Shown in pieces: positions 1-46,535 of a DNA stretch of 64,000 nt. A program made the translations under genes and the position numbers. Source of the DNA: Chroococcus sp. FPU101 (lineage in GTDB: Bacteria > Cyanobacteriota > Cyanobacteriia > Cyanobacteriales > Microcystaceae); assembly GCF_017312365.1 (NCBI RefSeq), contig NZ_BLJI01000001.1:124001-188000 (forward strand), given 5' to 3'. The number at the start of each line of letters is the position of its first letter. Position 1 is the first letter of the stretch. The notes under the pieces are model-generated. The model was not told the origin of the DNA. It saw nothing but the letters and a program-made list of their open reading frames with translations, and did not search any database.

Positions 1-666
1 CCAATTGGAACCTTAGAATTTGAACAGCTACAAAAACAATTTCAATTAGAACAAAGTCAAATATTATTACATAGTTTTGTCGGTGGTAAAATTGCTCCTG
101 CTTGGTTAAATCAATGGCTACAACCTCAGCAAACAGGTTCAATTACTGAACAATTAAAACAATTTCTACATCAGAAATTACCAGAGTACATGATACCTTC
201 TATTTATTTATTAATTGAAGCTTTACCCTTGACAGTTAATGGAAAAGTAGACCGAAAATTATTACCGAAACCCGATAGTTTATCTTTATCTCCTCAAACT
301 ACATTTGTTGAACCAAAAACAGAACTAGAAAAAGCAATAACAGAAATTTGGTCAAAATCACTTAATCTAGATAAAATTGGAATTTATGATAACTTTTTTG
401 ATTTAGGAGGCAATTCATTTTTAGCGACTCAAGTTTTAGCAAAAATTCGCAATACTTTTCAGGTTGATTTAACAATTAGACAGTTTTTTGAAATGCCTAA
501 AGTTTCTGATTTAGCAACTTGGTTAGAAAAAAACAAACAGCAACAAGAAATAGAAATAATTGAGAAAATGAATCGAGATGCGATAGAAGATGTGAGTCAG
601 TTATCTGAAGAAGAAGTAAATTTAATGTTGGCAAACTTGTTAGAAGAAGGGGTTGACAATGAATAA
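1..666 (+). CDS. Nonribosomal peptide synthetase, C-terminal end (adenylation tail and carrier domain); 5' end outside window
   Basis: The frame is open from the first base, so only the last 221 residues are visible. Residues 60-80 carry the end of an adenylation domain (LPEYMIPS, then the A10 motif NGKVDR). A peptidyl carrier domain follows, with phosphopantetheine site LGGNS near residue 137 of the fragment. The tail is acidic and helical (SEEEVNLMLANLLEEG), a typical end for subunits that dock onto a following synthetase. The 58 residues before LPEYM do not resemble the usual A8-A9 stretch, in which GEIE lies about 45 residues upstream, so a tailoring domain may be inserted in this A domain. 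The stop codon overlaps the ATG of the next synthetase gene by 8 bp, which implies one operon and translational coupling. Confidence 0.9.
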   Translation, partial: PIGTLEFEQLQKQFQLEQSQILLHSFVGGKIAPAWLNQWLQPQQTGSITEQLKQFLHQKLPEYMIPSIYLLIEALPLTVNGKVDRKLLPKPDSLSLSPQTTFVEPKTELEKAITEIWSKSLNLDKIGIYDNFFDLGGNSFLATQVLAKIRNTFQVDLTIRQFFEMPKVSDLATWLEKNKQQQEIEIIEKMNRDAIEDVSQLSEEEVNLMLANLLEEGVDNE

Positions 667-3600
667 TCATCCAATAAATATTAATCAACTTTCTTCCGAT
701 GAAAAAAGAAAATTATTAGCAGAATTAATGAGAAAAAAAGCGGCTAAATCTCAGTTTTTTCCGCTTTCGTTCGCTCAATCGAGATTATGGTTTTTAGACC
801 AATTAGACTCAGGGAGTTCAGTTTATAATCTTCCCATAGCCTTAAGTTTGAGAGGAAAACTAGATATTGCGCTTTTAGAAAAAAGTCTTAATCAGATTGT
901 CAGACGACATGAAATATTACGAACTTGTTTTACAGAAGTCAAAGAAGAAGTTTTTCAAAAGGTATTACCGAGTTTATCGGTGAAGTTAGATTTAATTAAT
1001 TTCCCCACTTCAGTTAACCAACAAGAAATTCAAACCTATATTAAACAAGAAGCATCTACTAAGTTTGATTTAACTCAAGTACCTTTATTTCGTAGCCAAT
1101 TACTCAAACTTGCTGAAGATGACTATGTATTGCTATTGACCATGCACCATATTATCTCAGATTATTGGTCGATGCGGGTTTTAATACAAGAACTATCAAC
1201 AATTTATCAAGGAAATGCTAGTGCTTTAAAAGAGTTACCTATTCAATATGTAGATTATGCGGTTTGGCAAAAAAACTGGTTAGAAAAAGAAGCAAAAACC
1301 ACTCAACTCGCTTACTGGAAAAAACAGCTAGAAAATCATTCACCTTTATTACAACTACCAACAGATTATCCGCGTCCATCTGTTCCCAGTTTTCAGGGTG
1401 CTACACAATATTTTACGCTAACGACTGAATTATCGGAGTCTCTTAAAACTCTCTCGCGTCGTGAAGGGGTAACACTTTTTATGACGCTACTCGCAGCATT
1501 TAAAATATTGCTGTATCGTTACACTGCTCAAGAAGATATCTTAATTGGTTCAACAATAGCAAATCGTAATCGTCCTGAACTAGAAAATTTAATCGGTTTA
1601 TTAGTCAATAACTTAGTCTTTCGCTCAAATTTATCGGGTAATCCTCGTTTTATAGACTTTTTACATCAAGTACGAGAAACAACTTTAAATGCTTACACTC
1701 ATCAAGATTTACCCTATGAATATTTGGTAAAAGAACTACAACTAGAACGAGATTTAAGCTACAATCCGTTATTTCAGGTGATGTTCATTCTCCACAATAC
1801 TCCATCACAAACGGTACAGCTTCCCAATTTAACTTTAAAATATCTTACACCAGACAGTCAAACAGCACGATTTGATCTGAGTTTGGATATGTCTGAAACT
1901 TCTACAGGATTAACAGGAGTATTTGAATATAATACAGATTTATTTAAGTCAGAGACAATTCACCGTTTAATCGAACATTTTGAAACATTACTCACTGGAA
2001 TTATAGCGAATCCCGAACAGCGATTATCAGAGTTACCCCTACTAACTCCCGATGAACAACAATTATTCAGTCAATGGAATGACACCCAACAAAATTATCA
2101 GCAAATCTGTTTTCATCAGTTATTAGAAGAACAAGTTGAGCGCATACCTGATAAGATAGCGATCGTATTTGAAGATCGATCATTAACTTACCACGAATTA
2201 AACACTAAAGCGAATCAACTTGCTCATTATCTCCAAAAACAGGGAGTCACACCAGAAACAAGAGTTGGAATCTGTGTTGAACGGTCTTTAGAAATGATAG
2301 TTGGACTTTTGGGAATCATTAAAGCAGGTGGGGTATATCTTCCACTTGACCCAACATACCCCAAAGAACGACTCGACTATATTATACAAGATGCTCTTGT
2401 ATCAATCTTGCTCACTCAATCAGAAATCATAGAGACGCAAAATTTTTCGTCTGTAGCTAGTAACATAATTTGTTTAGATAGAGACTGGGAATTAATTAAC
2501 CAAGAAAATCCCAAAAATCCTCAGAGTCGGGTTACTCCAGAAAATTTAGCCTATATTATTTATACTTCTGGTTCGACAGGTAATCCGAAAGGTGTAGAAA
2601 TTACCCAAAGTGCTTTAGTGAATTTTCTCCAGTCGATGCAGGATGCTTTACAACTCTCTTCTAACAACACACTGTTAGGAGTCACCACCCTATCGTTTGA
2701 TATTGCAGCATTAGAACTCTATTTACCTTTAATAGTCGGTGCAAAAGTCGTTTTAGTTAGTCGAGAAGTCGCGAGTGATGGATATCAGTTACTTGACAAA
2801 ATGAACGAGATAACCATCATGCAAGCCACCCCTGCAACTTGGCGATTATTATTATCCGTCGGATGGTCTGGAAATAAACAATTAAAAATTCTTTGTGGTG
2901 GGGAAGCTTTAGATACACAACTCGCACAACAATTATTGGAACGAAGTCAAGAAGTCTGGAACCTATACGGGCCAACAGAAACAACGATTTGGTCATCAAT
3001 GTATCGCCTAAATAGTTCATCTGTTCTGATTGGTCGTCCCATTGCTAATACACAATTTTATGTTCTCGACACTCACTTACAACCAGTACCGCTCGGGGTT
3101 TCAGGAGAATTATACATTGGTGGTGCAGGACTAGCCAGAGGATATTGTAATCGTCCAGACTTAACCGCAGAAAGATTCATCCCTCATCAAAATGGTCGTC
3201 TCTATAAAACAGGAGATCAGGTACGCTATTTAAGTGATGGTAATCTAGAATATCTCGGTCGTTTAGATTATCAAGTCAAAATACGGGGTTTTCGGATCGA
3301 ATTAGGTGAAATCGAAAGTATCCTAAATCAACATCCTGATATTGAAAAGAGTATTGTTATTGCGCGAGAAGACGACGAAAACGAAAAACGGTTAGTTGCA
3401 TACTTAATCAGTGAAAAATCACCAGATTTAAGAAACTATCTTAAAGATAAACTCCCGCATTATATGATTCCTGCGTTGTTTATCTCCTTAGATGCGTTTC
3501 CCCTGACACCCAATGGTAAGATCGATATACGATCGCTTCCTATCCCCAATTCAATCTCATCTGAAAATCTTGTCGTTACACCTTGCACACCTACCGAAGA

Positions 3601-6600
3601 GATATTACTATCTATATGGCAAAATATCCTTAATCTAGAACAGATTAGCATTCACGATAACTTTTTTGCTTTGGGAGGACATTCGTTACTTGCAACAAAG
3701 GTTATCTCCCAAATAAGACAACATTTTTCTATTGAAATTCCTTTACGTTTTCTCTTTGAAGCTTCTACGATCGCTGAATTAGCCAAAAAAATCGAAGTCA
3801 CCCAACTTGAAACACTGGGGTTAGACATTCCACCTATTTCTAAAACAGACAAAACACTTTTATCTTTTGCACAACAAAGACAATGGTTTCTAGCACAGTT
3901 AGAACCCGATAGCTTCTTTTATAATATACCTGCGGCGATTCGTCTACAGGGTCAATTCGATATAACCTTACTGGAAAAGTGTTTTAATCAAATCATCCAA
4001 CGTCATGAAAACCTACGAACTGCTTTTCATACCGACGAAGGTAAACCATTTATCGTCGTTACCCCAAAAATTAACTTAAATATACCCATTATTGAACTAA
4101 AACCAGACCAAGTAGAAAGTTATAGCCAAAAAGAAACCCAACAACCCTTTAAACTTGATGAACTTCCCCTGTTTCGAGTCAAAGTCTTACGTCTATCTCC
4201 AGAAGAACACATTATATTACTCACCATACATCATATTATTGCTGATGCTTGGTCTGTCGAAATCTTAGTCCAAGAAGTAGCGACACTCTATCATGCTTCT
4301 ACTTTACCCGACTTACCCATTCAATATAAAGATTATGCAGCTTGGCAAAGAGAAGTATTACAAGGGAAAATTTTAGAAACACAGTTAACCTACTGGAAAA
4401 AACAACTAAAAGATGCATCTACTGTTTTAGCATTACCCACCGACTACCCACGTTCGGCTATACAGACATATCAGGGTGATACAGTCAGGTTTGAAATATC
4501 CCAAGAATTGACTACATCTCTAAAAACCTTCAGCCAACAACAGGGATGTACAATCTTCATGACCCTGTTAGCAGTCTTCAAGATCCTACTTCATCGCTAC
4601 ACTAACAACGAAGATATCATCATTGGTACCCCGATCGCTAATCGAAATCGTCCTGAACTAGAATCACTAATCGGCTTTTTTGTCAACACATTAGCCTTGC
4701 GAACCGACTTATCAGGAAATCCCACCGTTGAGACTCTATTACTAAGGATAAAAGAAACTTGTTTAAATGCCTATGCTCATCAAGATATCCCCTTTGAACA
4801 GTTAGTCGATGAACTACAACTACCAAGAGACTTAAGTTATACTCCATTATTCCAAGTCATGTTTGTCTTGCAAAATACCCCCAGACAAACACTAAACCTA
4901 TCGGGTTTAACATGGAGTCCCATAGAAACACAAAGTAAAACAGCAAAATTTGATTTAACCCTATACATTACTGAAACTGAACAAGGATTTATCGGAACCT
5001 TTGAATACAACACCGATTTATTTAAAAAATCAACCATTCAACGCATGATAGGACATTTTCAAACCATTATTGCTGCAATTCTTACTAATTCTAAAGTACA
5101 GACGCGATATATCTCGTCTCTACCTCTATTAACTCAAACCGAAAAACAGCAAATATTAGAAGAATGGAATAACACTAAAACAGAATATCCCAAGACCTGC
5201 GGACTACATCAACTCTTTGAAGAACAAGTTAAACGAACCCCTAATACAATTGCTCTTATCTTAGAAAACCAACAACTCACTTATCAAGAACTCAACCAAC
5301 AAGCAAATCAAGTCGCACACTACTTACAAAATCTTGGAGTAAAACCAGAAGATAGAATCGGTATCTGTATCGATCGCACTTTCCATCTGATTATAGGACT
5401 CCTTGGTATCCTCAAAACAGGTGCCGCTTATGTACCACTTGACCCAAACTACCCATCAGAACGATTAGCGTTTACTATTCAAGATGCGGGATGTTCAGTA
5501 ATTCTAACGCAACAGAAGTTTAGCGAAATATTACCGCGAACTCGGAGAACAATTATTTGTCTAGATAACTATCAATTTGTAGAAGTAGAGAAACCAAACT
5601 CATCACAAGATCAAAATAATTTCATTAATACCATCAATGCTAATAACCTAGCATACATCATCTATACTTCGGGTTCGACAGGAAAACCCAAAGGAGTCGC
5701 AATTACTCATCATAGTGTAGTTTCATTCATCAACTGGGCAAAAAATATCTTTACCTCTGAACAACTTAAAGGAGTTCTCGCATCAACCTCCATTTGCTTC
5801 GACTTATCCGTCTTTGAAATTTTTGTCCCCTTAAGTTGTGGAGGAACCGTCATCTTAGCCGAAAATGCTCTACAATTACCCAACATCTCGACAAATATCA
5901 CTCTGATTAATACCGTACCATCAGCCGCCACCGAATTACTTAGAATTAATGGTATTCCCGAAAGCGTCGTCACCATTAACCTAGCAGGAGAAGCATTATC
6001 TAATCAACTTGTCCAACAACTCTATCAAAAACAACATATCCAACAAGTCTACAACCTCTACGGGCCATCGGAAGATACGACCTACTCAACCTATACCCTA
6101 ACATCCAAAGACGATACTCATTCCCCGACTATCGGTCGTCCTATTACTAATACCCAAACTTATATTCTTGATCGCTATCTTAACCCCGTTCCGATTGGTG
6201 TGCCAGGTGAACTGTATCTAGGTGGGGAAGGACTAGCGAGAGGATACCTCAACCAACCCCACTTAACCGCAGAAAAATTTATCCCCAACCCTTACCAACA
6301 CTCACACCGTCTTTACAAAACAGGAGACTTAGCAAAATATCAACCCAATGGAAAAATCGAATATTTGGGTAGACTCGACAATCAAGTTAAAATACGGGGA
6401 TTTCGCATCGAACTCGGAGAAATCGAAGCCATATTAAACCATCATCCCGAAATCTCGCAAACAGTCGTCAATCCTTGGCAAGACGACGCAGGAAATCAAA
6501 GATTAGTTGCATATCTCGTTGCATCTGGGGTTCCTCAAGACTTGCGAAACTTCCTCAGTTCAAAATTACCCGAATACATGATCCCGTCGATATTTGTCCC

Positions 6601-7000
6601 GCTAGAAACCCTCCCGCTAACCCCCAACGGCAAAATCGACCGCAAATCACTGCCTCGCCCACAACTCGCCGCCCATGCACAAAAAAATAAATTTGTCAAG
6701 CCCCAAACCGAAAAAGAAAAACAACTCGCGCAGATTTGGGGTCAGTTATTAGCAATCGAACAGATAGGGATATACGATAACTTTTTCGAGTTAGGAGGAG
6801 ATTCAATTTTAGCCATCCAAGCGATCGCCAAAGCCAATTTATACGGTTTACAATTAACTCCAAAACTTTTATTTAAACATCAAACCATAGCTGAATTAGC
6901 CTCAGTCATCGAAACCTCAACAATTCAAGCAGAACAGGACTTGTCACAGGTTTTGTTCCCCTCACACCGATACAGCAGTGGTTTTTTGAACAAAATCTAA
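659..7000 (+). CDS. Nonribosomal peptide synthetase C-A-PCP-C-A-PCP, cut off from its epimerization domain by a frameshift
   Basis: The start is ATG 659, preceded by AAGGGG at 647-652; an in-frame TTG at 653 is less likely. Domain order: condensation (about 37-480, active site HHIISDYW at 162), adenylation (A3 TSGSTG near 635, A10 NGKID near 951), carrier (LGGHS near 1004), condensation (HHIIADAW near 1190), adenylation (TSGSTG near 1668), carrier (LGGDS, 2045-2049). Aligned by eye to GrsA, the first A domain reads D-I-L-Q-L-G-L-I-W, the glycine code, and the second reads D-L-F-N-N-A-L-T-Y, an alanine code. LGGDSI is the carrier signature usually seen before an epimerization domain. That domain follows in the +1 frame. 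The present frame leaves the homology near base 6937 and ends 20 codons later. Both condensation motifs lack the glycine of HHxxxDG. Confidence 0.9.
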   Translation: MNNHPININQLSSDEKRKLLAELMRKKAAKSQFFPLSFAQSRLWFLDQLDSGSSVYNLPIALSLRGKLDIALLEKSLNQIVRRHEILRTCFTEVKEEVFQKVLPSLSVKLDLINFPTSVNQQEIQTYIKQEASTKFDLTQVPLFRSQLLKLAEDDYVLLLTMHHIISDYWSMRVLIQELSTIYQGNASALKELPIQYVDYAVWQKNWLEKEAKTTQLAYWKKQLENHSPLLQLPTDYPRPSVPSFQGATQYFTLTTELSESLKTLSRREGVTLFMTLLAAFKILLYRYTAQEDILIGSTIANRNRPELENLIGLLVNNLVFRSNLSGNPRFIDFLHQVRETTLNAYTHQDLPYEYLVKELQLERDLSYNPLFQVMFILHNTPSQTVQLPNLTLKYLTPDSQTARFDLSLDMSETSTGLTGVFEYNTDLFKSETIHRLIEHFETLLTGIIANPEQRLSELPLLTPDEQQLFSQWNDTQQNYQQICFHQLLEEQVERIPDKIAIVFEDRSLTYHELNTKANQLAHYLQKQGVTPETRVGICVERSLEMIVGLLGIIKAGGVYLPLDPTYPKERLDYIIQDALVSILLTQSEIIETQNFSSVASNIICLDRDWELINQENPKNPQSRVTPENLAYIIYTSGSTGNPKGVEITQSALVNFLQSMQDALQLSSNNTLLGVTTLSFDIAALELYLPLIVGAKVVLVSREVASDGYQLLDKMNEITIMQATPATWRLLLSVGWSGNKQLKILCGGEALDTQLAQQLLERSQEVWNLYGPTETTIWSSMYRLNSSSVLIGRPIANTQFYVLDTHLQPVPLGVSGELYIGGAGLARGYCNRPDLTAERFIPHQNGRLYKTGDQVRYLSDGNLEYLGRLDYQVKIRGFRIELGEIESILNQHPDIEKSIVIAREDDENEKRLVAYLISEKSPDLRNYLKDKLPHYMIPALFISLDAFPLTPNGKIDIRSLPIPNSISSENLVVTPCTPTEEILLSIWQNILNLEQISIHDNFFALGGHSLLATKVISQIRQHFSIEIPLRFLFEASTIAELAKKIEVTQLETLGLDIPPISKTDKTLLSFAQQRQWFLAQLEPDSFFYNIPAAIRLQGQFDITLLEKCFNQIIQRHENLRTAFHTDEGKPFIVVTPKINLNIPIIELKPDQVESYSQKETQQPFKLDELPLFRVKVLRLSPEEHIILLTIHHIIADAWSVEILVQEVATLYHASTLPDLPIQYKDYAAWQREVLQGKILETQLTYWKKQLKDASTVLALPTDYPRSAIQTYQGDTVRFEISQELTTSLKTFSQQQGCTIFMTLLAVFKILLHRYTNNEDIIIGTPIANRNRPELESLIGFFVNTLALRTDLSGNPTVETLLLRIKETCLNAYAHQDIPFEQLVDELQLPRDLSYTPLFQVMFVLQNTPRQTLNLSGLTWSPIETQSKTAKFDLTLYITETEQGFIGTFEYNTDLFKKSTIQRMIGHFQTIIAAILTNSKVQTRYISSLPLLTQTEKQQILEEWNNTKTEYPKTCGLHQLFEEQVKRTPNTIALILENQQLTYQELNQQANQVAHYLQNLGVKPEDRIGICIDRTFHLIIGLLGILKTGAAYVPLDPNYPSERLAFTIQDAGCSVILTQQKFSEILPRTRRTIICLDNYQFVEVEKPNSSQDQNNFINTINANNLAYIIYTSGSTGKPKGVAITHHSVVSFINWAKNIFTSEQLKGVLASTSICFDLSVFEIFVPLSCGGTVILAENALQLPNISTNITLINTVPSAATELLRINGIPESVVTINLAGEALSNQLVQQLYQKQHIQQVYNLYGPSEDTTYSTYTLTSKDDTHSPTIGRPITNTQTYILDRYLNPVPIGVPGELYLGGEGLARGYLNQPHLTAEKFIPNPYQHSHRLYKTGDLAKYQPNGKIEYLGRLDNQVKIRGFRIELGEIEAILNHHPEISQTVVNPWQDDAGNQRLVAYLVASGVPQDLRNFLSSKLPEYMIPSIFVPLETLPLTPNGKIDRKSLPRPQLAAHAQKNKFVKPQTEKEKQLAQIWGQLLAIEQIGIYDNFFELGGDSILAIQAIAKANLYGLQLTPKLLFKHQTIAELASVIETSTIQAEQDLSQVLFPSHRYSSGFLNKI

Positions 7001-8328
7001 CAGATTCTTATCACTGGAATCAATCGATCTTACTCGAAGTTCAACAGAAACTAAATCCAACATTAATAGAACAAGCAATCCAGAAATTAATAGAACATCA
7101 TGACGCATTACGGCTAAAATTCGAGCAAACCGAGACAGGATGGCAACAAAACATAGCACGTCTAGGTCAAACAATACCCGTTACTTTCCATGACCTTTCA
7201 GAAATATCTAACATAGATACAGAAATTGAGAAAATCGCCAATCAACTACAAGCGAGTTTTAACCTTTCTGTAGAACCCCTAATCCGAATCGCCTTTTTCA
7301 ATCTCGGTGAAAACCGTACAGACCGATTATTAATCATCATCCATCATTTAATTATAGATGGAGTTTCTTGGCGAATTCTCTTAGAAGATCTTCAAAATGC
7401 CTATCACCAACTGACTCAGGGAAAAACAGTACAACTTCCCCCTAAAACTACCTCATTTAAAGAATGGTCAAAACGTAATTACACCCCATCAGATCAAGAA
7501 TACTGGTTAAATGAATCTCGTCTGAAAGTAACTCCGCTTCCTGTAGATATTCCCAACGGCAAAAACATCCAGTCTGAAGCGCAAACAATTTCCGTCTCTC
7601 TAACACAAGCAGAAACCCAACAACTCCTTCAAGAGATTTCAGCAGTCTATCACACCCAAATTAACGATATTCTACTCACTGCTTTAGTCAAAACCTTTGA
7701 ACAATGGACAGGAAAACCGCAACTATTATTAGAACTAGAAGGACATGGAAGAGAAGAAATCTTTGAGGATATAGATATATCTCGTACCGTTGGCTGGTTT
7801 ACGACTCTATTTCCCTTATTGTTATATTTAGAACATAAAAATAATTTAGGGGATGCACTTAAGTCCATTAAAGAGCAATTACGTCAAGTACCCATGAGAG
7901 GATTTAGTTATGGAGTATTGCGCTATCGAAGTGACGAAACAATCCAAAAAAAATTACAAGCATTCCCTCAAGCTGAAATTAGATTTAATTACTTAGGACA
8001 AACTGACCAACTTTTTACCCAGTCATCTCTATTTTCACCAGCCTTTGAATCAACTGGATTTTCTCGTAGTCCCAGAAATCAACGTGACACCCTCATCGAA
8101 ATCAATGGAATGATCATAAGAGGACAATTACAAATCAATTGGACATATAGCCAAGGAATACATCATCAAACAACAATAGAAAATCTAGCTCAAAATTACT
8201 TAAATATCTTGCGTGAATTAATCCAACATTGCTTATCAACTGAAACAGGAGGTTATACCCCATCAGATTTCCCCCAAATGGATTTTAGCCAAACCGAATT
8301 AGACGAACTTTTAAACGAACTAATATAG
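6937..8328 (+). pseudogene. Epimerization (E) domain of the preceding NRPS, out of frame
   Basis: This frame is open for 463 codons but has no ATG, GTG or TTG before 7819, so it cannot be translated on its own as an entire domain. It begins in the sense expected after the carrier (VPLTPIQQWFFEQNL) and carries every E-domain signature: HHLIIDGVSWRIL at about 7342, EGHGRE, RTVGWFTTLFP, PMRGFSYG and FNYLGQ. Restoring one G in CAGGA near 6937 would rejoin it to the upstream gene as a C-A-PCP-C-A-PCP-E synthetase ending at 8328. The domain shows no decay beyond the shift. The lesion is therefore either very recent or a sequencing error in a short G run. A programmed frameshift is possible but nothing in the sequence supports it. 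Confidence 0.85.
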
Positions 8329-10208: not shown

Positions 10209-13200
10209 ATGAACAAACCCAACAATATAGAAGATATCTATCCTCTCTCACCCATGCAACAGGGAATTCTGTTTCATGTTCTTTTTACTCCTGATGCAGG
10301 GGTTTATCTACCTCAGATTTGTTTAACTCTTGAAGGTTCTCTAGATCATCTTCAGTTTAGACAAGCATGGGACAAAGTATTAGTTAGACATCCCGTTTTA
10401 CGAACGGCTTTTAATTGGGAAAAACGCGATAAACCCTTTCAAATCGTCTATCAGCAAGCTACATTACCTTGGGTTGAACAAGATTGGCGTAATTATTCAC
10501 CCGATGAGCAACAACAATTATTACAAAACTTTTTAGAAAAAGACCGTCAACAAAGCTTTGACTTAAAAAAGCCACCATTAATCAGACTAAACCTGATTCA
10601 ACTTACTGAAAAAAAATATTATTTAATCTGGACACAACACCATATTATTTTAGATGGTTGGTCATCAGGATTAGTGATTAAAGACCTTTTCGCTCTTTAT
10701 CAAAATCAAGATTTATCTCATAACCGACCCTATAGCGAGTATATCGCATGGCTCAATCAACAAAACCAATCATCGGCTCAAGAATTTTGGCAAAATAAAC
10801 TAAAAGGTTTTACGGCCCCCATAGATTTAAGGATTGATCGTCCTTCAAATACAATAGGATTAGATGAGCAAGAAATCTCTTTACCTCTAACCCCCCTTCA
10901 ATCTTTCGCTCAACAACATCAAATCACCATAAATACTCTTATTCAAGGGACTTTTGCAATTCTACTGAGTCATTATAGTGGTGAAGAGGATATCGTTTTT
11001 GGGGCTACTTCTGCGGGTCGTCCACCTACTTTAATCGGAGTTGAATCGATGGTAGGGCTGTTTATTAATACCTTACCAGTACGTGTCCAAGTCTTCCCTC
11101 AAGCTTTATTAATTCCTTGGTTAAAAAATCTACAAACTCAACAAGCCGAAACTTTACAGTATGAGTATAGCTCATTACTAGATATCCAACAATGGAGCGA
11201 TTTAAGTGCGAGTTTATCTCTATTTGACAGTATTTTAGTCTTTGAAAATTATCCTATAGATACTGCTTTAACTCAACAAAACCAATTAAGTATTAGTAAA
11301 GTAAATGCTGTTGAATGGACAAGCTTTCCTCTAACAGTTTTAGTTAGCTTAGGTGCCGAACTAACGATTAAAATAAAATATCAATGCACACGCTTTTCAT
11401 CAGATACCATCACCCGAATGTTGGGTCATTTTCAAACATTGTTAGAAGAAATTATAGCCAATTCTGAGCAACGTTTAGGTGAAATCTCAATCCTGACCCC
11501 AAGCGAACAAAAATCACTAAAAGAATGGAATAATACTCAAACAGAGTATCCGAAAAATCAATGTTTACATGAACGTTTTGAAAGACAAGTAGAAAAAACA
11601 CCCGAAGCAATAGCAGTAATTTTTGAAAAGCAACAATTAACTTATTTAGAGATAAATAATAAAGCCAATCAACTCGCCCATTACCTACAAACTTTGGGAG
11701 TTAAACCAGGTGTTTTAGTCGGAATTTGTCTAGAACGTTCTCTAGAAATGGTCATCGGGATTCTCGGAATCATAAAAATAGGTGGTGCATATGTACCAAT
11801 TGATCCGACTTATCCCATCGACAGACAATCTTTAATGTTAACCGATGCTCAAGTATCTATCTTACTCACTCATTCGGGAATAGTAGAAACGCAAAATTTC
11901 GCATCTGTAACTGAGAAGATAATTTGTTTAGATCGAGATTGGACGATAATTGCTCAATATTCCCATCTAAACCCAGTGAGTAAAGTAACGACTGAACATG
12001 AGGTTTATGTCATTTATACTTCTGGTTCAACAGGAAAACCAAAAGGAGTCATCAACACCCACCAAGGACTAATTAATCGTTTAGTTTGGATGCAGGAAAC
12101 CTATCAGTTAACTGTAAGTGACAAAGTTCTCCAAAAAACATCGATTAGCTTTGATGTATCAGTCTGGGAAATTTTCTGGCCATTATTTGAAGGTTCTTGT
12201 CTCATTTTAGCCAAACCCGACGGGCAAAAAGATAGTGCTTATTTAATTGAGTTAATCATTCAGCAAAAAATTACTACCCTGCATTTTGTCCCTTCGATGT
12301 TAAAAGTTTTTCTCGATGAACCCAGAATCAAAGATTGTCACTCGCTTAAACGGGTAATTTGTAGTGGAGAAGCTTTACCTCTTGAACTTCAAAATCGTTT
12401 CTTTTCTTGTCTTGATGCAGAACTACACAACCTTTACGGGCCAACAGAAGCAGCAATTGATGTCACTTATTGGTCATGTCAACCCACATCTTTATTGGTT
12501 CCAATTGGTAGAGCGATCGCCAATACTCAAATTTATATTCTTGACAAAAACGCCAACTTAGTATCCATTGGGGTAGCTGGAGAAATTCACATTGGAGGAG
12601 ATGGACTAGCAAGAGGATATTATAATCGTCCAGACTTAACAGCAGAAAAATTTATTCCAAATCCCTTTGAATCAGGAAAACGATTATATAAAACAGGTGA
12701 TCTAGCGAGATATTTATCGGATGGGACAATCGAATATTTAGGACGGATCGATCACCAAGTTAAAATTAGAGGTTTCCGTATTGAATTAGGAGAAATTGAA
12801 GCGGTACTATCTCAACATTCGACTGTCAAAGAAGCGATCGTTATCACCCAAGGAGAAGCAGAAAATCAATATTTAGTAGCCTACCTTATTTCTGATCTTG
12901 AAACAATTTCGTTTAATGATTTACGTCATTTCCTTCAACAAAAGTTACCTCATTATATGATTCCTGCCGATTTTGTTGTGCTGAAACAATTTCCATTATC
13001 TCTTAACGGTAAGCTTGAGCGTAAAGCTTTACCAACAGTCAATCACTTTAATAATAACTATGTTGCGCCTCGAAAGCCTACAGAAGAAAAAATAACGACG
13101 ATTTGGATAGAAGTCTTAAAAATACAGAAAATTGGCATCTATGATAACTTTTTTGAAATTGGTGGAAATTCTTTATTAGCAATTCGGATTAATAGTCGTC

Positions 13201-13352
13201 TATGTCAGGCTTTTGATCTCCAATTACCATTACGAACTTTATTTGAAAAAAACACTATTGCTAGTTTAGCCGAACGAATCGAAGTGATGCAAACAACCCT
13301 CAATCAACTTTCGCAATCTCCCCCTCAAAAAGAAAATGTTTGGGTGATCTGA
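10209..13352 (+). CDS. Nonribosomal peptide synthetase module C-A-PCP, predicted serine-activating
   Basis: A 1047-residue single module. The condensation domain begins IYPLSPMQQGILFH, the form typical of DCL domains that accept a D-residue donor, with an intact HHIILDGW at 144. This fits the epimerization domain that ends the preceding synthetase. The adenylation domain has TSGSTG near 603 and LYGPTE near 742. Aligned by eye to GrsA its code reads D-V-W-H-I-S-L-I-D, close to the serine code. The carrier site IGGNS lies near 983. The protein stops about 60 residues later with no thioesterase, reductase or terminal condensation domain, so either release happens elsewhere or the pathway is incomplete. 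A small perfect hairpin (TATCTTT/AAAGATA, 13364-13379) follows the stop without a T run. Confidence 0.92.
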   Translation: MNKPNNIEDIYPLSPMQQGILFHVLFTPDAGVYLPQICLTLEGSLDHLQFRQAWDKVLVRHPVLRTAFNWEKRDKPFQIVYQQATLPWVEQDWRNYSPDEQQQLLQNFLEKDRQQSFDLKKPPLIRLNLIQLTEKKYYLIWTQHHIILDGWSSGLVIKDLFALYQNQDLSHNRPYSEYIAWLNQQNQSSAQEFWQNKLKGFTAPIDLRIDRPSNTIGLDEQEISLPLTPLQSFAQQHQITINTLIQGTFAILLSHYSGEEDIVFGATSAGRPPTLIGVESMVGLFINTLPVRVQVFPQALLIPWLKNLQTQQAETLQYEYSSLLDIQQWSDLSASLSLFDSILVFENYPIDTALTQQNQLSISKVNAVEWTSFPLTVLVSLGAELTIKIKYQCTRFSSDTITRMLGHFQTLLEEIIANSEQRLGEISILTPSEQKSLKEWNNTQTEYPKNQCLHERFERQVEKTPEAIAVIFEKQQLTYLEINNKANQLAHYLQTLGVKPGVLVGICLERSLEMVIGILGIIKIGGAYVPIDPTYPIDRQSLMLTDAQVSILLTHSGIVETQNFASVTEKIICLDRDWTIIAQYSHLNPVSKVTTEHEVYVIYTSGSTGKPKGVINTHQGLINRLVWMQETYQLTVSDKVLQKTSISFDVSVWEIFWPLFEGSCLILAKPDGQKDSAYLIELIIQQKITTLHFVPSMLKVFLDEPRIKDCHSLKRVICSGEALPLELQNRFFSCLDAELHNLYGPTEAAIDVTYWSCQPTSLLVPIGRAIANTQIYILDKNANLVSIGVAGEIHIGGDGLARGYYNRPDLTAEKFIPNPFESGKRLYKTGDLARYLSDGTIEYLGRIDHQVKIRGFRIELGEIEAVLSQHSTVKEAIVITQGEAENQYLVAYLISDLETISFNDLRHFLQQKLPHYMIPADFVVLKQFPLSLNGKLERKALPTVNHFNNNYVAPRKPTEEKITTIWIEVLKIQKIGIYDNFFEIGGNSLLAIRINSRLCQAFDLQLPLRTLFEKNTIASLAERIEVMQTTLNQLSQSPPQKENVWVI

Positions 13353-15009: not shown

Positions 15010-17265
15010 ATGACTCAATTTACTCTAGTTGTTAATACGACAGCCGATCAAAATGATGGTAGTGCAAGCAATAGTTTATCGCTACGAGACGCGATTATGA
15101 TCGCAAATAGTGATCCCATTGCTAATGATTATGAAATTGTGTTAACCAGTGGAGCAACCTATCAACTAACAGCGATTAATTTAACAACTGATAGTGATCG
15201 AGGTGGCGATTTAGATATTTATGCAAAAGGAGAGGTCACAATTACAACAGATGGGAATCAAGCAGCAACCATTGACGCATCAAGATTAGCAACACGCGAT
15301 CGAGTAATTGAAGTAGGAATACGCGAAGATTCTGTCACCCTAGCTACAGGTAATTTAAAACTGGACAATATAGTAATCACTGGAGGTTCTGATAACAGTG
15401 CTTTTAAAGGAGGAGGAGGTATTTATATTGGTTCGCGCAGTTCAGTATTATTAAATTCTGTAGTTGTTACAGAGAATTTTAGTAGTGATAGCGGGGGAGG
15501 ACTTGCTAATGTAGGCACTCTACTTTTACTGGCTAGTGTAGTTAAAAATAACAGAGTAAGTGGTGGTAGTTTTGGTATTGGAGGTGGTATTAATAACATT
15601 GGAACTCTGACTATACTTGACTCAACGATTGAGAATAATCAGTCTAACAACGGTGGTGGAGGAATCGGTAATTTTGAAGTTGCCACAATTATAAATAGCA
15701 CTATTCATAACAACAGTAGCCGTGATGGTGGGGGAATTTATAACAATGGCGGTACTCTAGGTTTAACTAACGTTACAGTGAGCAGCAATACATCCACATT
15801 TGATTATGGAGGAGGTTTAAATAATAATAATGGTTCGATCGCTACTCTTACTAACAGTACAATTACCAATAATACAGCTACTTCTCAATTCTCTTCTAAT
15901 GAAACAAGTGGAGGAGGAATCGGTAACTTTAATGCAACACTAAATCTGCGAAATACAATTGTTGCAGGGAATACAGCGGAGCTAGGTGCTGATATTCGTA
16001 GTTGGTTTGGTAGTCATATTGTTAATGATGATGGCAGTAATCTCATTGATCAACTTCTTTTTGGCGACGACACAGCCATTGACAACAATATCGATCCTAA
16101 ACTTGGCCCATTACAGAATAACGGGGGATTAACTCTCACCCATGCCCTTTTAGAGGGTAGTCCAGCTATTAATGCAGGTAATAATGCTAATATCGCGGCT
16201 GATAGTTTAGATAGTGATAACGATGGTGATACAACCGAATTAATTCTATACGATCAGCGTGGTAGTGGTTATCCTCGAATTTATGGAAATGCTGTTGATA
16301 TTGGTGCTGTTGAATTCCAACCCCCACCACCCTCGATTAGTCTTAGTAACGTCGCTACAACAACCGATGATTTAGCCAATTCTAACGCCGTTTTTACAGT
16401 AACTTTAAGTTATGCAAGTGGTTCTCCAATTACTGTACAGTATACAACTCAAGATGGTTCAGCGATCGCAGGAAGTGATTATATCCCTACTTCAGGAACT
16501 TTAACTTTTAGTCCAGGTCAAACCGCTTTAGCTCTAGCTGTTCCCATTATTACTGACACTGTTTTTGAAGGTGATGAACTTTTTTTCGTAACGCTTTCTA
16601 ACCCTAGTAATGCAGCAATCTCTAATTTTATTGGGACTGGTATTATTACAAATATTGATCCTGCTGAATATGCTGCCTCCAATCCCGATTTAATCGCTGC
16701 TTTTGGTTACAATTTGGATGCTTTGCGTAATCATTATTATAGTAACGGGATTAATGAAGGAAGAAGTACAAACAGTTTTGATGAATACCGTTATATTGCC
16801 TCTAATACTGATTTAATTCCTGTTTTCGGTTTAAATACGGCTGCTGCGATTCAACACTATCTTACAAATGGCTATACTGAAGGACGTTCTACTACATCTT
16901 TTGATCCTGCGCGTTATTTGGATTCCTATGATGATTTATTAAGTGTGTATGGAACGAATACTGTAGGAGCAACGCAACATTATATTACGAATGGTTATAC
17001 TGAAGGACGCAATCCAAATTTATTCAATAGCGATCGCTATATTGCCTCACACGGCGATCTGATTCAAGCATTCCATTACAATTTAGAAGCAGGTTCTAAC
17101 CATTATCTATATTCGGGTAGAAACGAAGGAAGACAAGTAACATTTGATCCCTATTCTTATCTGTCTTTTAACTCTGATGTTGCAAGTGCCTACAATAATG
17201 ATCCGATTTTAGCTACAAAGCATTATATTGAATCTGGTTACGGTGAGGGTCGTCGCGTGGCTTAA
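15010..17265 (+). CDS. Large secreted/surface protein: beta-helix repeats, Calx-beta domain and five C-terminal HY/EGR repeats
   Basis: 751 residues. Residues 1-100 resemble the CSLREA-type start of extracellular beta-helix proteins (NSLSLRDAIMIANSDP). Residues about 130-390 are glycine/asparagine-rich strands of the form GGGI-N-G-LT-NSTI-NN, typical of a right-handed parallel beta helix. A Calx-beta domain follows at about 443-548 (GSAIAGSDYIPTSGTLTF). From about 551 to the end there are five repeats of roughly 41 residues with pattern Y-ASxxDLI...A...HY...G..EGR. No classical signal peptide is present, so type I secretion is the likely route. The protein at 43692-46535 ends in the same repeats and shares nothing else obvious. 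A surface or adhesion role is inferred. Confidence 0.8.
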   Translation: MTQFTLVVNTTADQNDGSASNSLSLRDAIMIANSDPIANDYEIVLTSGATYQLTAINLTTDSDRGGDLDIYAKGEVTITTDGNQAATIDASRLATRDRVIEVGIREDSVTLATGNLKLDNIVITGGSDNSAFKGGGGIYIGSRSSVLLNSVVVTENFSSDSGGGLANVGTLLLLASVVKNNRVSGGSFGIGGGINNIGTLTILDSTIENNQSNNGGGGIGNFEVATIINSTIHNNSSRDGGGIYNNGGTLGLTNVTVSSNTSTFDYGGGLNNNNGSIATLTNSTITNNTATSQFSSNETSGGGIGNFNATLNLRNTIVAGNTAELGADIRSWFGSHIVNDDGSNLIDQLLFGDDTAIDNNIDPKLGPLQNNGGLTLTHALLEGSPAINAGNNANIAADSLDSDNDGDTTELILYDQRGSGYPRIYGNAVDIGAVEFQPPPPSISLSNVATTTDDLANSNAVFTVTLSYASGSPITVQYTTQDGSAIAGSDYIPTSGTLTFSPGQTALALAVPIITDTVFEGDELFFVTLSNPSNAAISNFIGTGIITNIDPAEYAASNPDLIAAFGYNLDALRNHYYSNGINEGRSTNSFDEYRYIASNTDLIPVFGLNTAAAIQHYLTNGYTEGRSTTSFDPARYLDSYDDLLSVYGTNTVGATQHYITNGYTEGRNPNLFNSDRYIASHGDLIQAFHYNLEAGSNHYLYSGRNEGRQVTFDPYSYLSFNSDVASAYNNDPILATKHYIESGYGEGRRVA

Positions 17266-18333: not shown

Positions 18334-19752
18334 CTAGAGGGTATCCATTGCCTCGAACTCGAACTTGATTTCTTTCCAGAGTTCACAAGCTGCGGCTAAT
18401 TCAGGTGACCAGCGACAAGCTTCACGAATAACGTCGTTACCTTCACGAGCTAAAGAACGTCCTTCGTTACGAGCTTGAACACAAGCTTCTAGAGCAACAC
18501 GGTTAGCAGTTGCACCAGGAGCATTACCCCAAGGGTGACCGAGGGTTCCACCACCGAACTGTAAGCAAGAATCATCGCCGAAGATTTCAACTAACGCGGG
18601 CATATGCCATACGTGAATACCACCTGATGCTACAGGGAACACACCGGGTAAAGACGCGTAATCTTGGGTAAAGAAGATACCACGTGCGCGATCTTCTTCA
18701 ACGTAATCTTCACGCATGAGGTCAACAAAACCCATCGTGATACCGCGTTCGCCTTCTAATTTACCGACAACGGTTCCAGAGTGTAAGTGGTCGCCACCCG
18801 ATAGTCTTAAGCACTTGGCTAAGACGCGGAAGTGAATCCCGTGATTTTTTTGACGATCGATTACAGCGTGCATCGCACGGTGAATGTGAAGCAGTAAACC
18901 ATTAGCGCGACAGAAATGGGCTAAAGTGGTATTCGCTGTAAAGCCACCTGTTAGGTAGTCGTGCATGATGATCGGGGTTTTGATTTCTTTGGCGAATTCA
19001 GCCCGTTCCATCATTTGTTCACAAGTCGGAGCAGTCACGTTGAGGTAGTGACCTTTCATCTCGTTGGTTTCAGCTTGGGATTTTTCGATCGCCTCTTGGA
19101 CAAAGAGGAAGCGATCGCGCCAACGCATGAAGGGTTGTGAGTTGATGTTTTCGTCGTCTTTGGTGAAGTCTAGACCACCGCGTAAACACTCATAAACGGC
19201 ACGACCATAGTTTTTAGCCGATAAACCGAGTTTGGGTTTAATGGTACAACCGAGTAAAGGACGACCATATTTATTTAATTTGTCACGCTCAACGGTGATA
19301 CCGTGAGGGGGGCCTTGGAAGGTTTTGATCAAAGCGACGGGGAAGCGAATATCTTCTAAACGTAGGGCGCGTAGAGCTTTAAACCCAAATACGTTACCGA
19401 CGATCGAGGTCAGAATGTTAGTAACTGAACCTTCTTCAAATAGATCTATAGGATAAGCAACAAAGCAGAAATACTGATTATCTTCGTTAGCAACGGGTTC
19501 GATGTTGTAGCAACGACCTTTGTAACGATCTAAGTCGGTTAGGTTGTCTGTCCAAACGGTTGTCCAAGTTCCTGTTGAAGATTCAGCCGCTACTGCTGCT
19601 CCTGCTTCTTCGGGAGGTACACCGGGTTGGGGTGTCACACGAAAACAGGCGAGAAGATCGGTATCTTTGGGGGTGTAGTCGGGGGTGTAATAAGTTAAGC
19701 GATAGTCTTTTACACCTGCGTCAAACCCTGTTTTTCCTTTAGCTTGCACCAT
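18334..19752 (-). CDS. rbcL: Ribulose bisphosphate carboxylase/oxygenase large subunit, form IB
   Basis: 472 residues, full length. The catalytic core is intact: [16 protein letters not shown] contains the carbamylated lysine and its Asp/Glu neighbours, TIKPKLGLS carries the substrate-binding lysine, and loop 6 is visible as [11 protein letters not shown]. It fixes CO2 onto ribulose bisphosphate inside the beta-carboxysome. The start is supported by GGAGGA (complement of 19763-19768) about 10 bases before ATG 19752. It is the first gene of rbcL-rbcX-rbcS. The carboxysome genes lie upstream on the same strand, about 540 bp away, so co-regulation with them is plausible but a separate promoter is likely. 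Confidence 0.99.
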
Positions 19753-20997: not shown

Positions 20998-23001
20998 TTA
21001 GGGGCGTTGGATAATGGTTTCTAAGACGCGGCGTTTCGCTTTAGAATCAATGCCTAACAAGCGGACATATTCGCCTTGATGTTCAGCGACACAGCTTTCG
21101 AGTGCGGCAAACACATCCGACTCTCTGTTGCTTTCAACCGGAGTACAACTTTGCCATGAACCCGTCCGAAAACGTCGTTTATCAGCGTGTTCCATACCAA
21201 TTTTATGACCTTGAGCCAGTAAAGCGCGAACTTGAGCGACAACTTCTGGACTGAGGCGGTTATGACCCGCATAAGTTTTAGTCGTTGTTTTAGCAGGACT
21301 GCTGTAGCTAGAGGTTGTTTCAATGGCAGAGCGTGACATGGTTTGCGCTTTCTCATCAGGACGATGAATAATCGCTTCTAGGACACGGCGTTTAGCTTTA
21401 GGATCAATACCTAACAAGCGGACATATTCGCCTTGATGTTCAGCAATACAAGCTTCTAAAGCCGAAATAACGTCAGATTCGCGGTTACTTTCGATGGGTG
21501 TACAACTTTGCCATGAACTGGTACGGAAACGACGTTTGTCGGCGTGTTCGGTGCCAATTTTATAGCCTTGAGCCAACAGAGCGCGAACTTGACTAATCAT
21601 GTCTGAAGCGATATTTGCTTTAACCGCAGAACCGCCACGACTGCTACCGTAGGAAGATTGAGCATGAGAAGTACCGTTAGAATCTAGGCTGACTTTTTCG
21701 CCTGGTCTTTGTACGATTAGTTCTAAAACGCGGCGTTTTACTTGTGGATCGATGCCAACGACACGAACGTATTCGTCTGAATGCTCGGCAAGTAAAGTTT
21801 CTAAGGAACGAATGACAGCGTTTTCGTTTTGTCCCTCGAGGGTGGGACCGGTTTGCCAAGAACTGGTTTTAAAACGGCGTTGGTTGGCAAACTCTGTGCC
21901 GATTTTATAACCTTGATTCATTAGCGATCGCAGATGAGAGCGAACATTTGAGTTGACTTGTCCGTTGTTGCTATTGCCGTGATGGGCGGGCGAACTTTTA
22001 TAATGACCGTTGTTACCTGAAGAAGTGATCTGAGTTGGGTTATCACCAGGGCGTTGAATAATCGTTTCAAGAACGCGGCGTTTTGCTTGTGGATCGATGC
22101 CGATTAAACGAACATATTCTCCTTGATTATCTTGAAGAAATGCTTCAATTTCATGGAGAATTTGGTCTTCACGTTGTCCTGTGATTGAGCCACAGCTTAA
22201 CCAAGAACTGGTTTTAAAACGACGCTGATCTGCGTGTTCTGCTCCTACTTTATAGCCTTGAGAGAGGAGAGAGCGCACTTGATCACGAAGGGATATGGTT
22301 GTAGTACTCATAGGTGTTTCTGTATTTTTATAGAGTTCCTCAGTAGATTCTTTTATAGGGGCTGGCTGTTCTCTCACGCTTTTTTGACTAGCCGTGTTTT
22401 CAGAACTTTGATAGCCTGCCCGTAATGCTTCTTTTATTTCTACAACATGATTAGCAAAAAGACGATCGCTTTTTTGAATATCGGGTAAGCGATCAGCCTG
22501 TTGCTGAGTGGTTATAATTGAGCCAGACGGGACAAATTTACCGCTTGGGATTTCGACATCTTGAATTAGAGCGTGCATCATCACAATACAGCCCTCACCG
22601 ACACGGGCATTAAAGATCGTCGAACGAAAGCCGATAAAAGAATTATTCCCCACATAGGCGGGGCCGTGAATCAGTGCCATATGGGTGATACAGACTTTGC
22701 TCCCGATCCAGACAGAATATTCTTTTCCGTCATCTCCGACGACTCGCCCTTTAGATAGTCCGTGAATCAACACGCCATCTTGAATATTGGTGCTTTCCCC
22801 GATGTAAAACGGAGCCCCTTCATCGGCTCGAATCGATGTACCAGGGGCGATTAAAACATTCGGCCCAACTGTAACATTACCAATAAGGTTAGAGAAGGAG
22901 TGAACAAAAGCACTTGCATCAATTTGAGGTTCTTCTAAGTTTTTTGACCACGGAGTCGGGGGGGCCGCCGTTGTTTGGGAAAAGACAGTGCGGGCTGCCA
23001 T
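20998..23001 (-). CDS. ccmM: Carboxysome scaffold protein CcmM, gamma-carbonic-anhydrase domain plus four RuBisCO small-subunit-like domains
   Basis: 667 residues. Residues about 20-200 form a gamma-carbonic-anhydrase-like beta helix with the metal-ligand histidines in place (VLIHG and ITHMALIHG). Four small-subunit-like domains follow, starting near residues 235, 350, 460 and 580. Each has [20 protein letters not shown] and ends in GEYVRLxGIDxxAKRRVLExIxxRP or a close variant. They bind RuBisCO and condense it in carboxysome assembly. The segment after the helix reads [10 protein letters not shown] where I would expect a cysteine pair, suggesting an inactive anhydrase. An ATG at 22311 ([12 protein letters not shown]) just before the first small-subunit-like domain is a candidate internal start for the short form. 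Domain 2 lacks the cysteine found after the SSW motif in the others. Confidence 0.98.
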
Positions 23002-43691: not shown

Positions 43692-46535
43692 TTAAACTAC
43701 TCTATCTTCAAAATAACCAAACTCAATATAATGACGCGTCGGATCACTACCATAAATGGGATCAGCCGCGACATCTGAATTATTGGCTAGATAAGAAGCA
43801 GGATTAAAGATTTCTCTGGCTCGTCCTTCGGCTCTACCAGCAACAACATAATGCGCGCTACCATAGTTGATCTTACTCGAATAATTACCACTATTGATCG
43901 GTTGTAAGGCTTGAATTAAATCGCCATAGGAAGCAACATAGATATCTGGTTTAAACGCCAGAGGATCACGACCTTCAGCCCCTACAGAGAATTGAGAACC
44001 AAAGAGAATATAATGTGCAGTTGCTCCTACGACATCACTTTCATAGTAATCCAGTAAATCATCATAGCCCGCTAAGTAACGATACTCATCAAAAGTATCA
44101 GCCGCTCGCCCTTCACCAAAACCAGATTGAATATAATGGATACTGCCTGCCATTATATTGTAACCTAGGCTACTGATTAAATCACCATAAGATGCTATGT
44201 ACTGATCACTCTGGAAACTGGTTAGCGATCGCCCTTCATTTAATCCAGATTCGATATAGTGTCGCGCTGCGGCATCACCATCCATACCAATGATCGGAAT
44301 TAAATCTGTATTTGATGCTACATAACGAAACTCATCAAAAAGATCTGGACTTCTTCCTTCAGCCCGTCCTAAATCTCGATAATGATCTCTTAAGCCCGAT
44401 AAATCATAGCCATAAGCGGCACTCAAATCAGGATACGATGCCCCATATTGAGCCGCATCAATATCGATATTGAGGGCAAAAACATCACTAATAGAGGCAC
44501 CAGAACTATCGGTTGCTACTACATTAATTTCAAGCGCACCGTAATCGGCAACAGATGGGGTACCCGAAAAGGTTTCGCTGATTGGCTCAAACGTTAACCA
44601 ACTTGGTAGAGGGCTTCCATCAACTAAAGAAGCTGAGTAATTTAAGATCTCCCCAGGATCGATATCGGTAAATGTATTGTCAGGAAGCTCATAACTAAAA
44701 GAACGATCAATAACAGTACCTTGATCGGAAATTGGGATTGCAAGGCTCGGCGCATCATTAACATTCGTGAGGGTTAGAGCAAAATCATCTGAAACACTGG
44801 CATTTTCAGGATCAGTTGCTGTTACTCTAATCGAGTATGTAATTGAAAAAGTAGGAATATCTGAATTAGTAGGTGTTCCGCTAAGAGTGCTAGTTGCAGG
44901 ATCAAATGTTAGCCAACTTGGTAAGGGCGTTCCATCTGTTAATGTAGCCGAATAGGTAAGAGGATCGGCATCGATATCATCAAAGGTATTTTCTGGAACT
45001 TGAAAGCTAAATAACTGATCTTCGGTGGTACTTTGATCAGCGATCGCATTTGCCACACTTGGAGGATTATTGATTGTAGGATCGGAAATATTTAAAGCAA
45101 AAGTATCAGTAACGCTGGCTCCCGCTTCATCGGTTGCCGTAACGTAAACATTAAAAGTACCTGCATCGGCATTCGTAGGATTACCGCTAAAAGTACGAGT
45201 CGTGGCATTAAAGCTTAACCAACTCGGTAAAGGCGAACCGTTCTCCAGAGTCGCGGTATAAGTAAGACTATCGCCTAAATCTTCGTCGGTGAAAGTATTA
45301 TTCGCAAAGGTAAAATTAAAGTTTTGCCCAACTGCTGTATTTTTATCAGCGATCGCATTGGAAACAACTGGGGCATCATTGACATTAATTACATCTAGAT
45401 TAAACCGAGTCGAAGTAAAAGCACCATCCCCATCAGTTGCTCTAACCAAAATATTGAGGCGACCAACTTGAGAATTATTGGGTGTGCCACTAAAAGTACG
45501 AGTCGCAGCATTAAAACTTAACCAACTTGGTAAAGCTCCCCCATCACCAAGACTAGCGGTATAAACTAAGGATGAATTATCAAACGGATCAAAATCAATA
45601 ATAGTATTCGCTGGAATGGTAAAGCTAAAAGCTTGATCTTCCTGCGCCTGTTGGGATGAGATCGGAGTTACTACAATCGGGGCATAATTCAAACCTGAGC
45701 TATTATTAGAAACAATGACATCACCACCAGAAATTTCTTGAATGAGATATTCACTAGAATCTAATTGTTGAGAAATAGCGATTCTGCTTCTAGTTCCTGT
45801 AGCTTTAAGCTGTAGAATTTGACCGACAACACTATTTAACCTAATTAATGAAATTTGTCCCCCGTTAATCGCATCAACGTTATTATCACCAGCATAAGTC
45901 GACAGTCTTTCTAAATAAAGAACGCTATTATCGGTACTGAGATCAACTTCTTCAAGATTAGTAACCTGAGCTAAATTAATAAATCCAGCATTGCGAGTTT
46001 TGATTAAAGACCGAGTAAAATCATCATCTATAAATTCAGTGAGCCTAGATAAATTGATCGAACTTCCCGCACCATCGGCAAATACTTCCGTTGTACCGCC
46101 ACTAATTCTCGTTACATTACTTAAATTGATTTGACCACCCTGTGACGCATCGATATTTAGGACTTTTAACGTTCTTCCACCATTAAGGGAAGTTACATCA
46201 GATAGATCAATTACACTACCATTTCCCCTAGCTTCGATACTAATATCATTTGCATTACTGCCGCGATAAGTGGTTAAACCCGTCAGCTTAAGACTTCCAC
46301 CATTATTCGCTAGTAAATTTAAGCCACCATATGCTGGGTTACCATTAGAAAAGGTAATTTCGTAAGTCGTGCCTCTCGTCGTATTCTCGATCGTTACTAG
46401 ATCATTTGCGGTGGGGACTCTTCCAGTACTCCAATTAGCCGTATCATACCAATCACCATTAGTCCCAATCCATCTAACAGGAGTTAAGCTTGGTTGTACT
46501 GCATTAATTGTTGGATTCTCTTCTAAAGTTGTCAT
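43692..46535 (-). CDS. Giant surface protein: N-terminal repeat region, four cadherin/Ig-like domains and six C-terminal HY/EGR repeats
   Basis: 947 residues. Residues 20-60 (WIGTNGDWYDTANWSTGRVP) match the start of autotransporter-like beta-solenoid proteins, followed by leucine/glycine-rich strands to about 280. Four roughly 95-residue putative-Ig (He_PIG/cadherin-like) domains follow from about 285 to 690, each with PSWLxFxxxTxTFSGTP or similar. From about 692 six repeats of 40-48 residues end the protein (for example YIASYGDLISSLGYNIMAGS then HYIQSGFGEGR). These match the C-terminal repeats of the protein at 15010. No signal peptide is visible. Export by a type I system and calcium-dependent adhesion are plausible but inferred. 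Confidence 0.8.
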   Translation of the reverse strand: MTTLEENPTINAVQPSLTPVRWIGTNGDWYDTANWSTGRVPTANDLVTIENTTRGTTYEITFSNGNPAYGGLNLLANNGGSLKLTGLTTYRGSNANDISIEARGNGSVIDLSDVTSLNGGRTLKVLNIDASQGGQINLSNVTRISGGTTEVFADGAGSSINLSRLTEFIDDDFTRSLIKTRNAGFINLAQVTNLEEVDLSTDNSVLYLERLSTYAGDNNVDAINGGQISLIRLNSVVGQILQLKATGTRSRIAISQQLDSSEYLIQEISGGDVIVSNNSSGLNYAPIVVTPISSQQAQEDQAFSFTIPANTIIDFDPFDNSSLVYTASLGDGGALPSWLSFNAATRTFSGTPNNSQVGRLNILVRATDGDGAFTSTRFNLDVINVNDAPVVSNAIADKNTAVGQNFNFTFANNTFTDEDLGDSLTYTATLENGSPLPSWLSFNATTRTFSGNPTNADAGTFNVYVTATDEAGASVTDTFALNISDPTINNPPSVANAIADQSTTEDQLFSFQVPENTFDDIDADPLTYSATLTDGTPLPSWLTFDPATSTLSGTPTNSDIPTFSITYSIRVTATDPENASVSDDFALTLTNVNDAPSLAIPISDQGTVIDRSFSYELPDNTFTDIDPGEILNYSASLVDGSPLPSWLTFEPISETFSGTPSVADYGALEINVVATDSSGASISDVFALNIDIDAAQYGASYPDLSAAYGYDLSGLRDHYRDLGRAEGRSPDLFDEFRYVASNTDLIPIIGMDGDAAARHYIESGLNEGRSLTSFQSDQYIASYGDLISSLGYNIMAGSIHYIQSGFGEGRAADTFDEYRYLAGYDDLLDYYESDVVGATAHYILFGSQFSVGAEGRDPLAFKPDIYVASYGDLIQALQPINSGNYSSKINYGSAHYVVAGRAEGRAREIFNPASYLANNSDVAADPIYGSDPTRHYIEFGYFEDRVV

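Follow-up and report, generated by a model that had tools for sequence, protein, structure and literature searches.

The EGR repeat, a tandem repeat family and candidate swappable terminal module of T1SS-type exoproteins

Two exoprotein-like genes of Chroococcus sp. FPU101, both located in the 64,000-nucleotide stretch of DNA analyzed here (the window), encode proteins that end in tandem copies of the same repeat of about 41 residues. Judged from sequence comparisons, these EGR repeats form a real family that is absent from the libraries and literature searched, and they appear to be one of the terminal modules that T1SS-type exoproteins exchange. Our proposal, which we advance tentatively as a reading that may well be correct but falls short of being probable, is that the EGR cassette is swapped between T1SS-exported proteins, folds outside the cell, and retains its cargo on the cell surface, probably via polysaccharide.

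Gene 1 (15010–17265, plus strand) encodes a protein of 751 amino acids with a beta-helix-type N-terminal half, a choice-of-anchor Q domain (residues 362–437, positions 16093–16320; NCBIfam NF041518, E 5e-19), and a Calx-beta domain (residues 461–534, positions 16390–16611; Pfam PF03160, E 1e-19). A CSLREA match was also obtained, with a score under the cut-off. Five tandem EGR repeats occupy residues 549–751 (16654–17262), and the end of the array is the final residue of the protein. Repeat 1 (IDPAEYAASNPDLI...HYYSNGINEGR) is encoded at 16654–16776, repeat 2 at 16777–16899, repeat 3 at 16900–17022, repeat 4 at 17023–17142, and the C-terminal repeat 5, ending ...HYIESGYGEGRRVA, at 17143–17262, all on the plus strand.

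Gene 2 (43692–46535, minus strand) encodes a protein of 947 amino acids with four He_PIG (Ig-like) domains at residues ~283–690 (44466–45689; Pfam PF05345, 4 stretches, E 1e-79), followed by six EGR repeats that span residues 692–947 (43695–44462) and again finish at the final residue. On the minus strand, repeats 1 through 3 lie at 44343–44462, 44220–44339, and 44097–44216. Repeat 4 (43962–44093) has a 5-residue insertion before EGR, repeat 5 (43812–43955) has an 8-residue insertion between helices, and repeat 6 (43695–43808) is C-terminal, ending ...HYIEFGYFEDRVV. Elsewhere in the window are non-ribosomal peptide synthetase genes (653–7000 and 10209–13352) with condensation, AMP-binding, and carrier domains, and a gene for a CcmM-like protein (20998–23001) with RuBisCO-small-like repeats (4 stretches), near a RuBisCO large-subunit gene (18334–19752).

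The preliminary description of this DNA had reported five and six copies of one repeat at the ends of these proteins, and our analysis agreed, with the correction that gene 2 is on the minus strand. Its statement that the two proteins are otherwise different also held, the domains being choice-of-anchor Q and Calx-beta in gene 1 versus He_PIG in gene 2. For gene 2 it had given a solenoid plus Ig-like domains; the Ig-like domains were recovered, and the N-terminal region called a solenoid had no Pfam match. Neither protein has an N-terminal hydrophobic segment as judged by a hydropathy window, the measure used here rather than a signal-peptide predictor, in keeping with the reported lack of signal peptides.

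The residues Y, D, HY, G, E, and R were unchanged in all 11 window copies. A profile made from the five repeats of gene 1 alone matched the C-terminus of gene 2 with 203 bits, whereas the best of 5000 shuffles reached 10 bits; because of this difference, the sharing of the repeat is not due to chance. None of the other reading frames of the window contained the repeat. Membership in the family was defined by the signature Y-x5-D-x14-H-x4-G-x2-E-x-R in tandem units of ~41 residues, which the window repeats possess. Three flavours were told apart by eye. Flavour A (Y-AS-x2-DLI...HYI...EGR) was found in 12 proteins of the source genome, including those of both window genes; flavour B (YYL..NPDV...) is C-terminal and occurs on 5'-nucleotidase and sorbosone dehydrogenase; and flavour C was seen at the N-terminus, its carriers being one RTX protein and proteins with PPC domains. 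Among 292 repeats of all three flavours, six positions were nearly invariant (Y 100%, D 96%, H 96%, G 100%, E 94%, R 97%).

Searches of Pfam, NCBIfam, PHROGs, and PDB sequences gave no match to the repeat, nor did any of the 11 single repeats match Pfam at E≤10, so the earlier remark that no named domain was known for it was borne out. No EGR repeat was found in phages, and the published literature searched, which covered papers outside subscription, nowhere describes it. The 205-residue module of gene 1 was predicted to form three helices per repeat (pLDDT 96, pTM 0.87). When this predicted structure was used for a fold search of the PDB, the best Foldseek match had an E of 1.8 and VIA gave none at Z≥2, a result that is no proof of a new fold. 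Sel1 and TPR repeats are similar to EGR in unit length and helical content; EGR differs from them in its three helices per unit, and neither a Pfam match nor a PDB fold match connects them.

To examine the order of repeats within the array, we compared the eight proteins whose array consists of five flavour-A repeats, using 2000 label shuffles. Repeats of the same rank in different proteins were 64% identical, versus 42% for repeats of different rank (p≤0.0005; no shuffle of the 2000 was as high). The similarity of equal ranks therefore indicates that the entire ordered cassette, not single repeats, was copied between proteins. The last repeat was considered as a specially conserved signal and rejected as such, its conservation being the lowest of all ranks (54%). 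In five orthologue pairs with a congener genome, the dN of the module was well below its dS, as in the cargo, which points to purifying selection on the EGR module.

The source genome (5.29 Mb, 104 contigs), for which one congener genome was sampled, gave 98 matches to the repeat. In the 18 proteins that were read, the array ended 0–1 residue from the C-terminus in 14 and was N-terminal in four, and none had a signal-peptide-like N-terminus by hydropathy. The cargo was varied: beta-helix/choice-of-anchor Q, Ig-like, beta-propeller-type, subtilase plus PPC, cyclophilin, 5'-nucleotidase, and sorbosone dehydrogenase. An EGR-bearing subtilase (L036, 6438–10534) is split into two frames (ORFs of 424 and 937 aa) with a break near 7636, caused by either a frameshift or an assembly error. 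A 15-repeat protein (L035, 15963–19343) seems to reiterate the cassette every ~4–5 units, and three tandem genes (L041, 8480–14245) each have 7–8 N-terminal EGR repeats, with PPC confirmed in the third and the others alike by eye. The genome also contains C39-type ABC exporters, HlyD proteins, and many RTX matches.

In other organisms the position of the array was less uniform. With a broad profile, 28 of 241 good cyanobacterial genomes (~12%) and 20 of 230 alphaproteobacterial genomes (~9%) were found to contain the repeat. In 43 other cyanobacterial proteins the array was N-terminal in 19, C-terminal in 16, and internal in 8; thus C-terminal placement, which the two window proteins had suggested, is not a general rule. 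The terminal bias is nevertheless strong, with 15 C-terminal arrays observed among 40 complete frames versus 2.1 expected at random placement. Most EGR proteins of cyanobacteria lack RTX. RTX-like motifs were present in 23 of the 31 alphaproteobacterial EGR proteins sampled, with the array C-terminal in 12 and N-terminal in 10. Stappia proteins have RTX, then 7–9 EGR repeats and the terminus EGRTDDVIV, and the C-terminal arrays of Niveispirillum are mostly followed by a tail of ~7 residues after EGR, as in IITAADAGWLG. One alphaproteobacterial protein of 1943 aa (L396, 5601–11429) contains at least 16 EGR repeats across 1400 residues and no Pfam domain.

Proximity to type I secretion genes had been suggested as a check, and such links are clear outside the source genus. 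On a Sphingobium plasmid, 38 bp separate an EGR/RTX gene from the T1SS ABC gene and HlyD that follow it. Near the EGR genes of Aureimonas and Rhodospirillum rubrum there are likewise T1SS genes, and near that of Azospirillum ramasamyi, genes of the HlyD/TolC type. In the source genome, no EGR gene adjoins the T1SS genes examined.

The evidence that EGR is one among several interchangeable ends comes from cargo swaps. Twelve other sampled cyanobacterial genomes encode homologues of the cyclophilin cargo of EGR protein L040, most of them 52–62% identical; here the place of EGR is taken by RTX at six loci and by DUF4214 in L196 (Pfam-confirmed). By eye, other homologues end in a DUF4214-type (L202) or DUF4114-like (L197) module. 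The cyclophilin cargo of L198, L200, L201, and L203–L205 carries a C-terminal short repeat, YRFQN..GTYLFVGEEE..I..N, a candidate interchangeable end module. Among the 20 homologues of the 5'-nucleotidase that were examined, RTX-like motifs occurred in 9, and EGR was absent from all. DUF4214 (PF13946) thus resembles EGR as a C-terminal domain on the same cyclophilin cargo (L196); it differs in that its profile matched neither window protein nor any of the 11 single repeats (E≤10).

A close parallel is with RTX (PF00353), whose proteins are T1SS substrates with an uncleaved C-terminal signal of ~60 residues (PMC3034196). Like EGR, RTX is tandem, is found at the C-terminus of the same cargo, lacks a signal peptide, and is interchanged with EGR on homologous cargo; in Alphaproteobacteria both modules occur in one protein. 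Unlike RTX, EGR is a ~41-residue three-helix unit that can be N-terminal and has no GGxGxD motif and no calcium-site motif that we could see, and a PF00353 search of both window proteins gave no match. LPXTG, PEP-CTERM, and T9SS tails are likewise interchangeable ends, and gene 1 holds a choice-of-anchor Q domain (NF041518), such cargo being named for its varying C-terminal anchors. Those sorting tails depend on a Sec signal peptide or T9SS. In contrast, EGR is a folded repeat array by prediction, and the window proteins have no N-terminal hydrophobic segment; neither of them gave a Pfam or NCBIfam sorting-tail match, their C-terminus being the repeat itself. The repeat family is new, and the kind of system to which it belongs, a swappable end of T1SS-type exoproteins, is already known.

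Two kinds of genomic context were considered as further evidence and rejected. EGR genes are found in polysaccharide clusters; however, RTX metallopeptidases without EGR, used as controls, are likewise placed, with polysaccharide or glycosyltransferase genes near 4 of 6. Co-occurrence with HlyD was pronounced phylum-wide (26/28 with EGR versus 76/216 without, p 3e-9), but this signal was gone within the order of the source genome (20/22 versus 45/54, p 0.49), and the phylum-wide association is therefore ascribed to lineage and genome size. The controls thus failed to DISCRIMINATE both for polysaccharide neighbours and for HlyD presence within the order.

Some EGR proteins are of the sugar-transfer type, including a DUF4422 protein (L173), a WsaF-type glycosyltransferase (L388), and a methyltransferase/glycosyltransferase (L246) encoded inside a dTDP-rhamnose gene cluster. 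These members carry single or multiple copies, and their expected site of action is the cytoplasm; occurrence in cytoplasmic proteins, which the preliminary description would have counted against its suggestion, thus applies to a minority of members. In addition, the best fold matches among viral predicted structures were giant-virus glycosyltransferases and other giant-virus proteins (E 2e-6 and weaker). Because of these members and matches, the repeat alone is no sign of export.

The sequence data show that the cassette is shared, ordered, and placed at protein termini; they also show the cargo swap with RTX, the RTX/T1SS links in relatives, and purifying selection. The mechanism we propose would build on these as follows. 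An alpha-helical EGR module may have been moved by evolution between signal-peptide-less cargo proteins of the T1SS (ABC transporter, HlyD, and TolC). In the source genus, a fixed five-repeat cassette forms the very C-terminus of at least 12 unrelated cargo proteins; with the cassette in that place, an uncleaved T1SS signal would have to overlap the last repeat or repeats. Both export by T1SS in the source organism and the location of the signal there are putative, the pointers to such export being indirect: the cargo swap, the gene neighbours, and the lack of a signal peptide. After export the cassette would fold outside and most likely tether its cargo to the cell surface, where polysaccharide is the probable ligand. 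The analogy is with RsaA, an RTX-family protein of the Caulobacter S-layer, whose helical N-terminal domain binds O-antigen and holds the protein on the surface (PMC6978808). As an all-helical terminal domain of a T1SS/RTX protein it is a precedent, not a relative; no RsaA chain was among the PDB sequence or fold matches to EGR. Similarity to known lectins was found by neither sequence nor fold, and glycan binding is a possibility raised by the domain company of EGR. We prefer glycan-dependent retention because surface glycan is the common denominator of the exported and the glycosyltransferase settings.

The first alternative is that the cassette itself is the T1SS export element, a substitute for RTX that supplies an export-competent C-terminus and signal, with no anchoring. 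We regard it as unlikely, although nothing follows the last repeat in the source genus, EGR stands in the place of RTX on homologous cargo, and RTX is missing from most cyanobacterial EGR proteins. The N-terminal arrays in 19 of the 43 other cyanobacterial proteins do not fit an export element, nor do the many alphaproteobacterial arrays that precede a separate tail (RIITAADAGWLG in Niveispirillum) or lie beside RTX, the sugar-transfer enzymes, or the low conservation of the last rank (54%). Moreover, RTX is unfolded at low calcium (PMC3034196), whereas EGR is predicted to have a compact helical fold. The preliminary description had offered a secretion signal or a surface anchor as the role of the shared module. 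That the module is shared, has a strong terminal bias, and sits on export-type cargo without signal peptides was upheld; because it also occurs N-terminally, before separate short tails, and on glycosyltransferases, it is probably not a secretion signal and nothing more. An anchor or binding module is more likely than a pure secretion signal.

A role in self-assembly, in which the cassette would be a protein–protein lattice module (S-layer-like oligomerisation) and not a glycan binder, seems to us quite improbable. One cassette on many cargo types in one genome looks as if these proteins join one matrix, and tandem helical repeats commonly serve as interaction scaffolds, but single-copy and glycosyltransferase-fused members fit such a lattice poorly. 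Slightly less credible again is a purely passive role, with the repeats serving as a stabilising cap or a spacer that has no particular partner. The presence of arrays at both termini and in the interior of numerous proteins would suit this; on the other hand, the six near-invariant positions of the 292 repeats, the ordered cassette, and purifying selection suggest a specific role, and the excess of C-terminal arrays (15 versus 2.1 expected) also argues against it. Finally, the lack of signal peptides by hydropathy, the glycan-enzyme members, and the giant-virus relatives would be consistent with cytoplasmic proteins whose repeats work inside the cell, like those of the glycosyltransferase-type members, but the Calx-beta, beta-helix, Ig-like, subtilase, and PPC cargo is typical of exoproteins and relatives have RTX or lie beside T1SS genes, making this reading very improbable.

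Surface retention of exported cargo through polysaccharide remains our preferred reading. A broader version of it, more doubtful than the retention model itself, is that EGR might be a general glycan-recognition repeat, used inside cells on the enzymes that build glycans (in bacteria and giant viruses) and outside on T1SS cargo kept on those glycans; in the source genus it would have displaced RTX and come to serve as the standard tag at the C-terminus of a whole set of surface proteins. Naming the EGR repeat would annotate many exoproteins now listed as "hypothetical" or "calcium-binding". The interchange of EGR and RTX provides an experimental handle on the roles of T1SS C-terminal modules beyond that of a signal, and EGR bears on how cells without LPXTG or T9SS choose which of their exported proteins remain bound to the surface.
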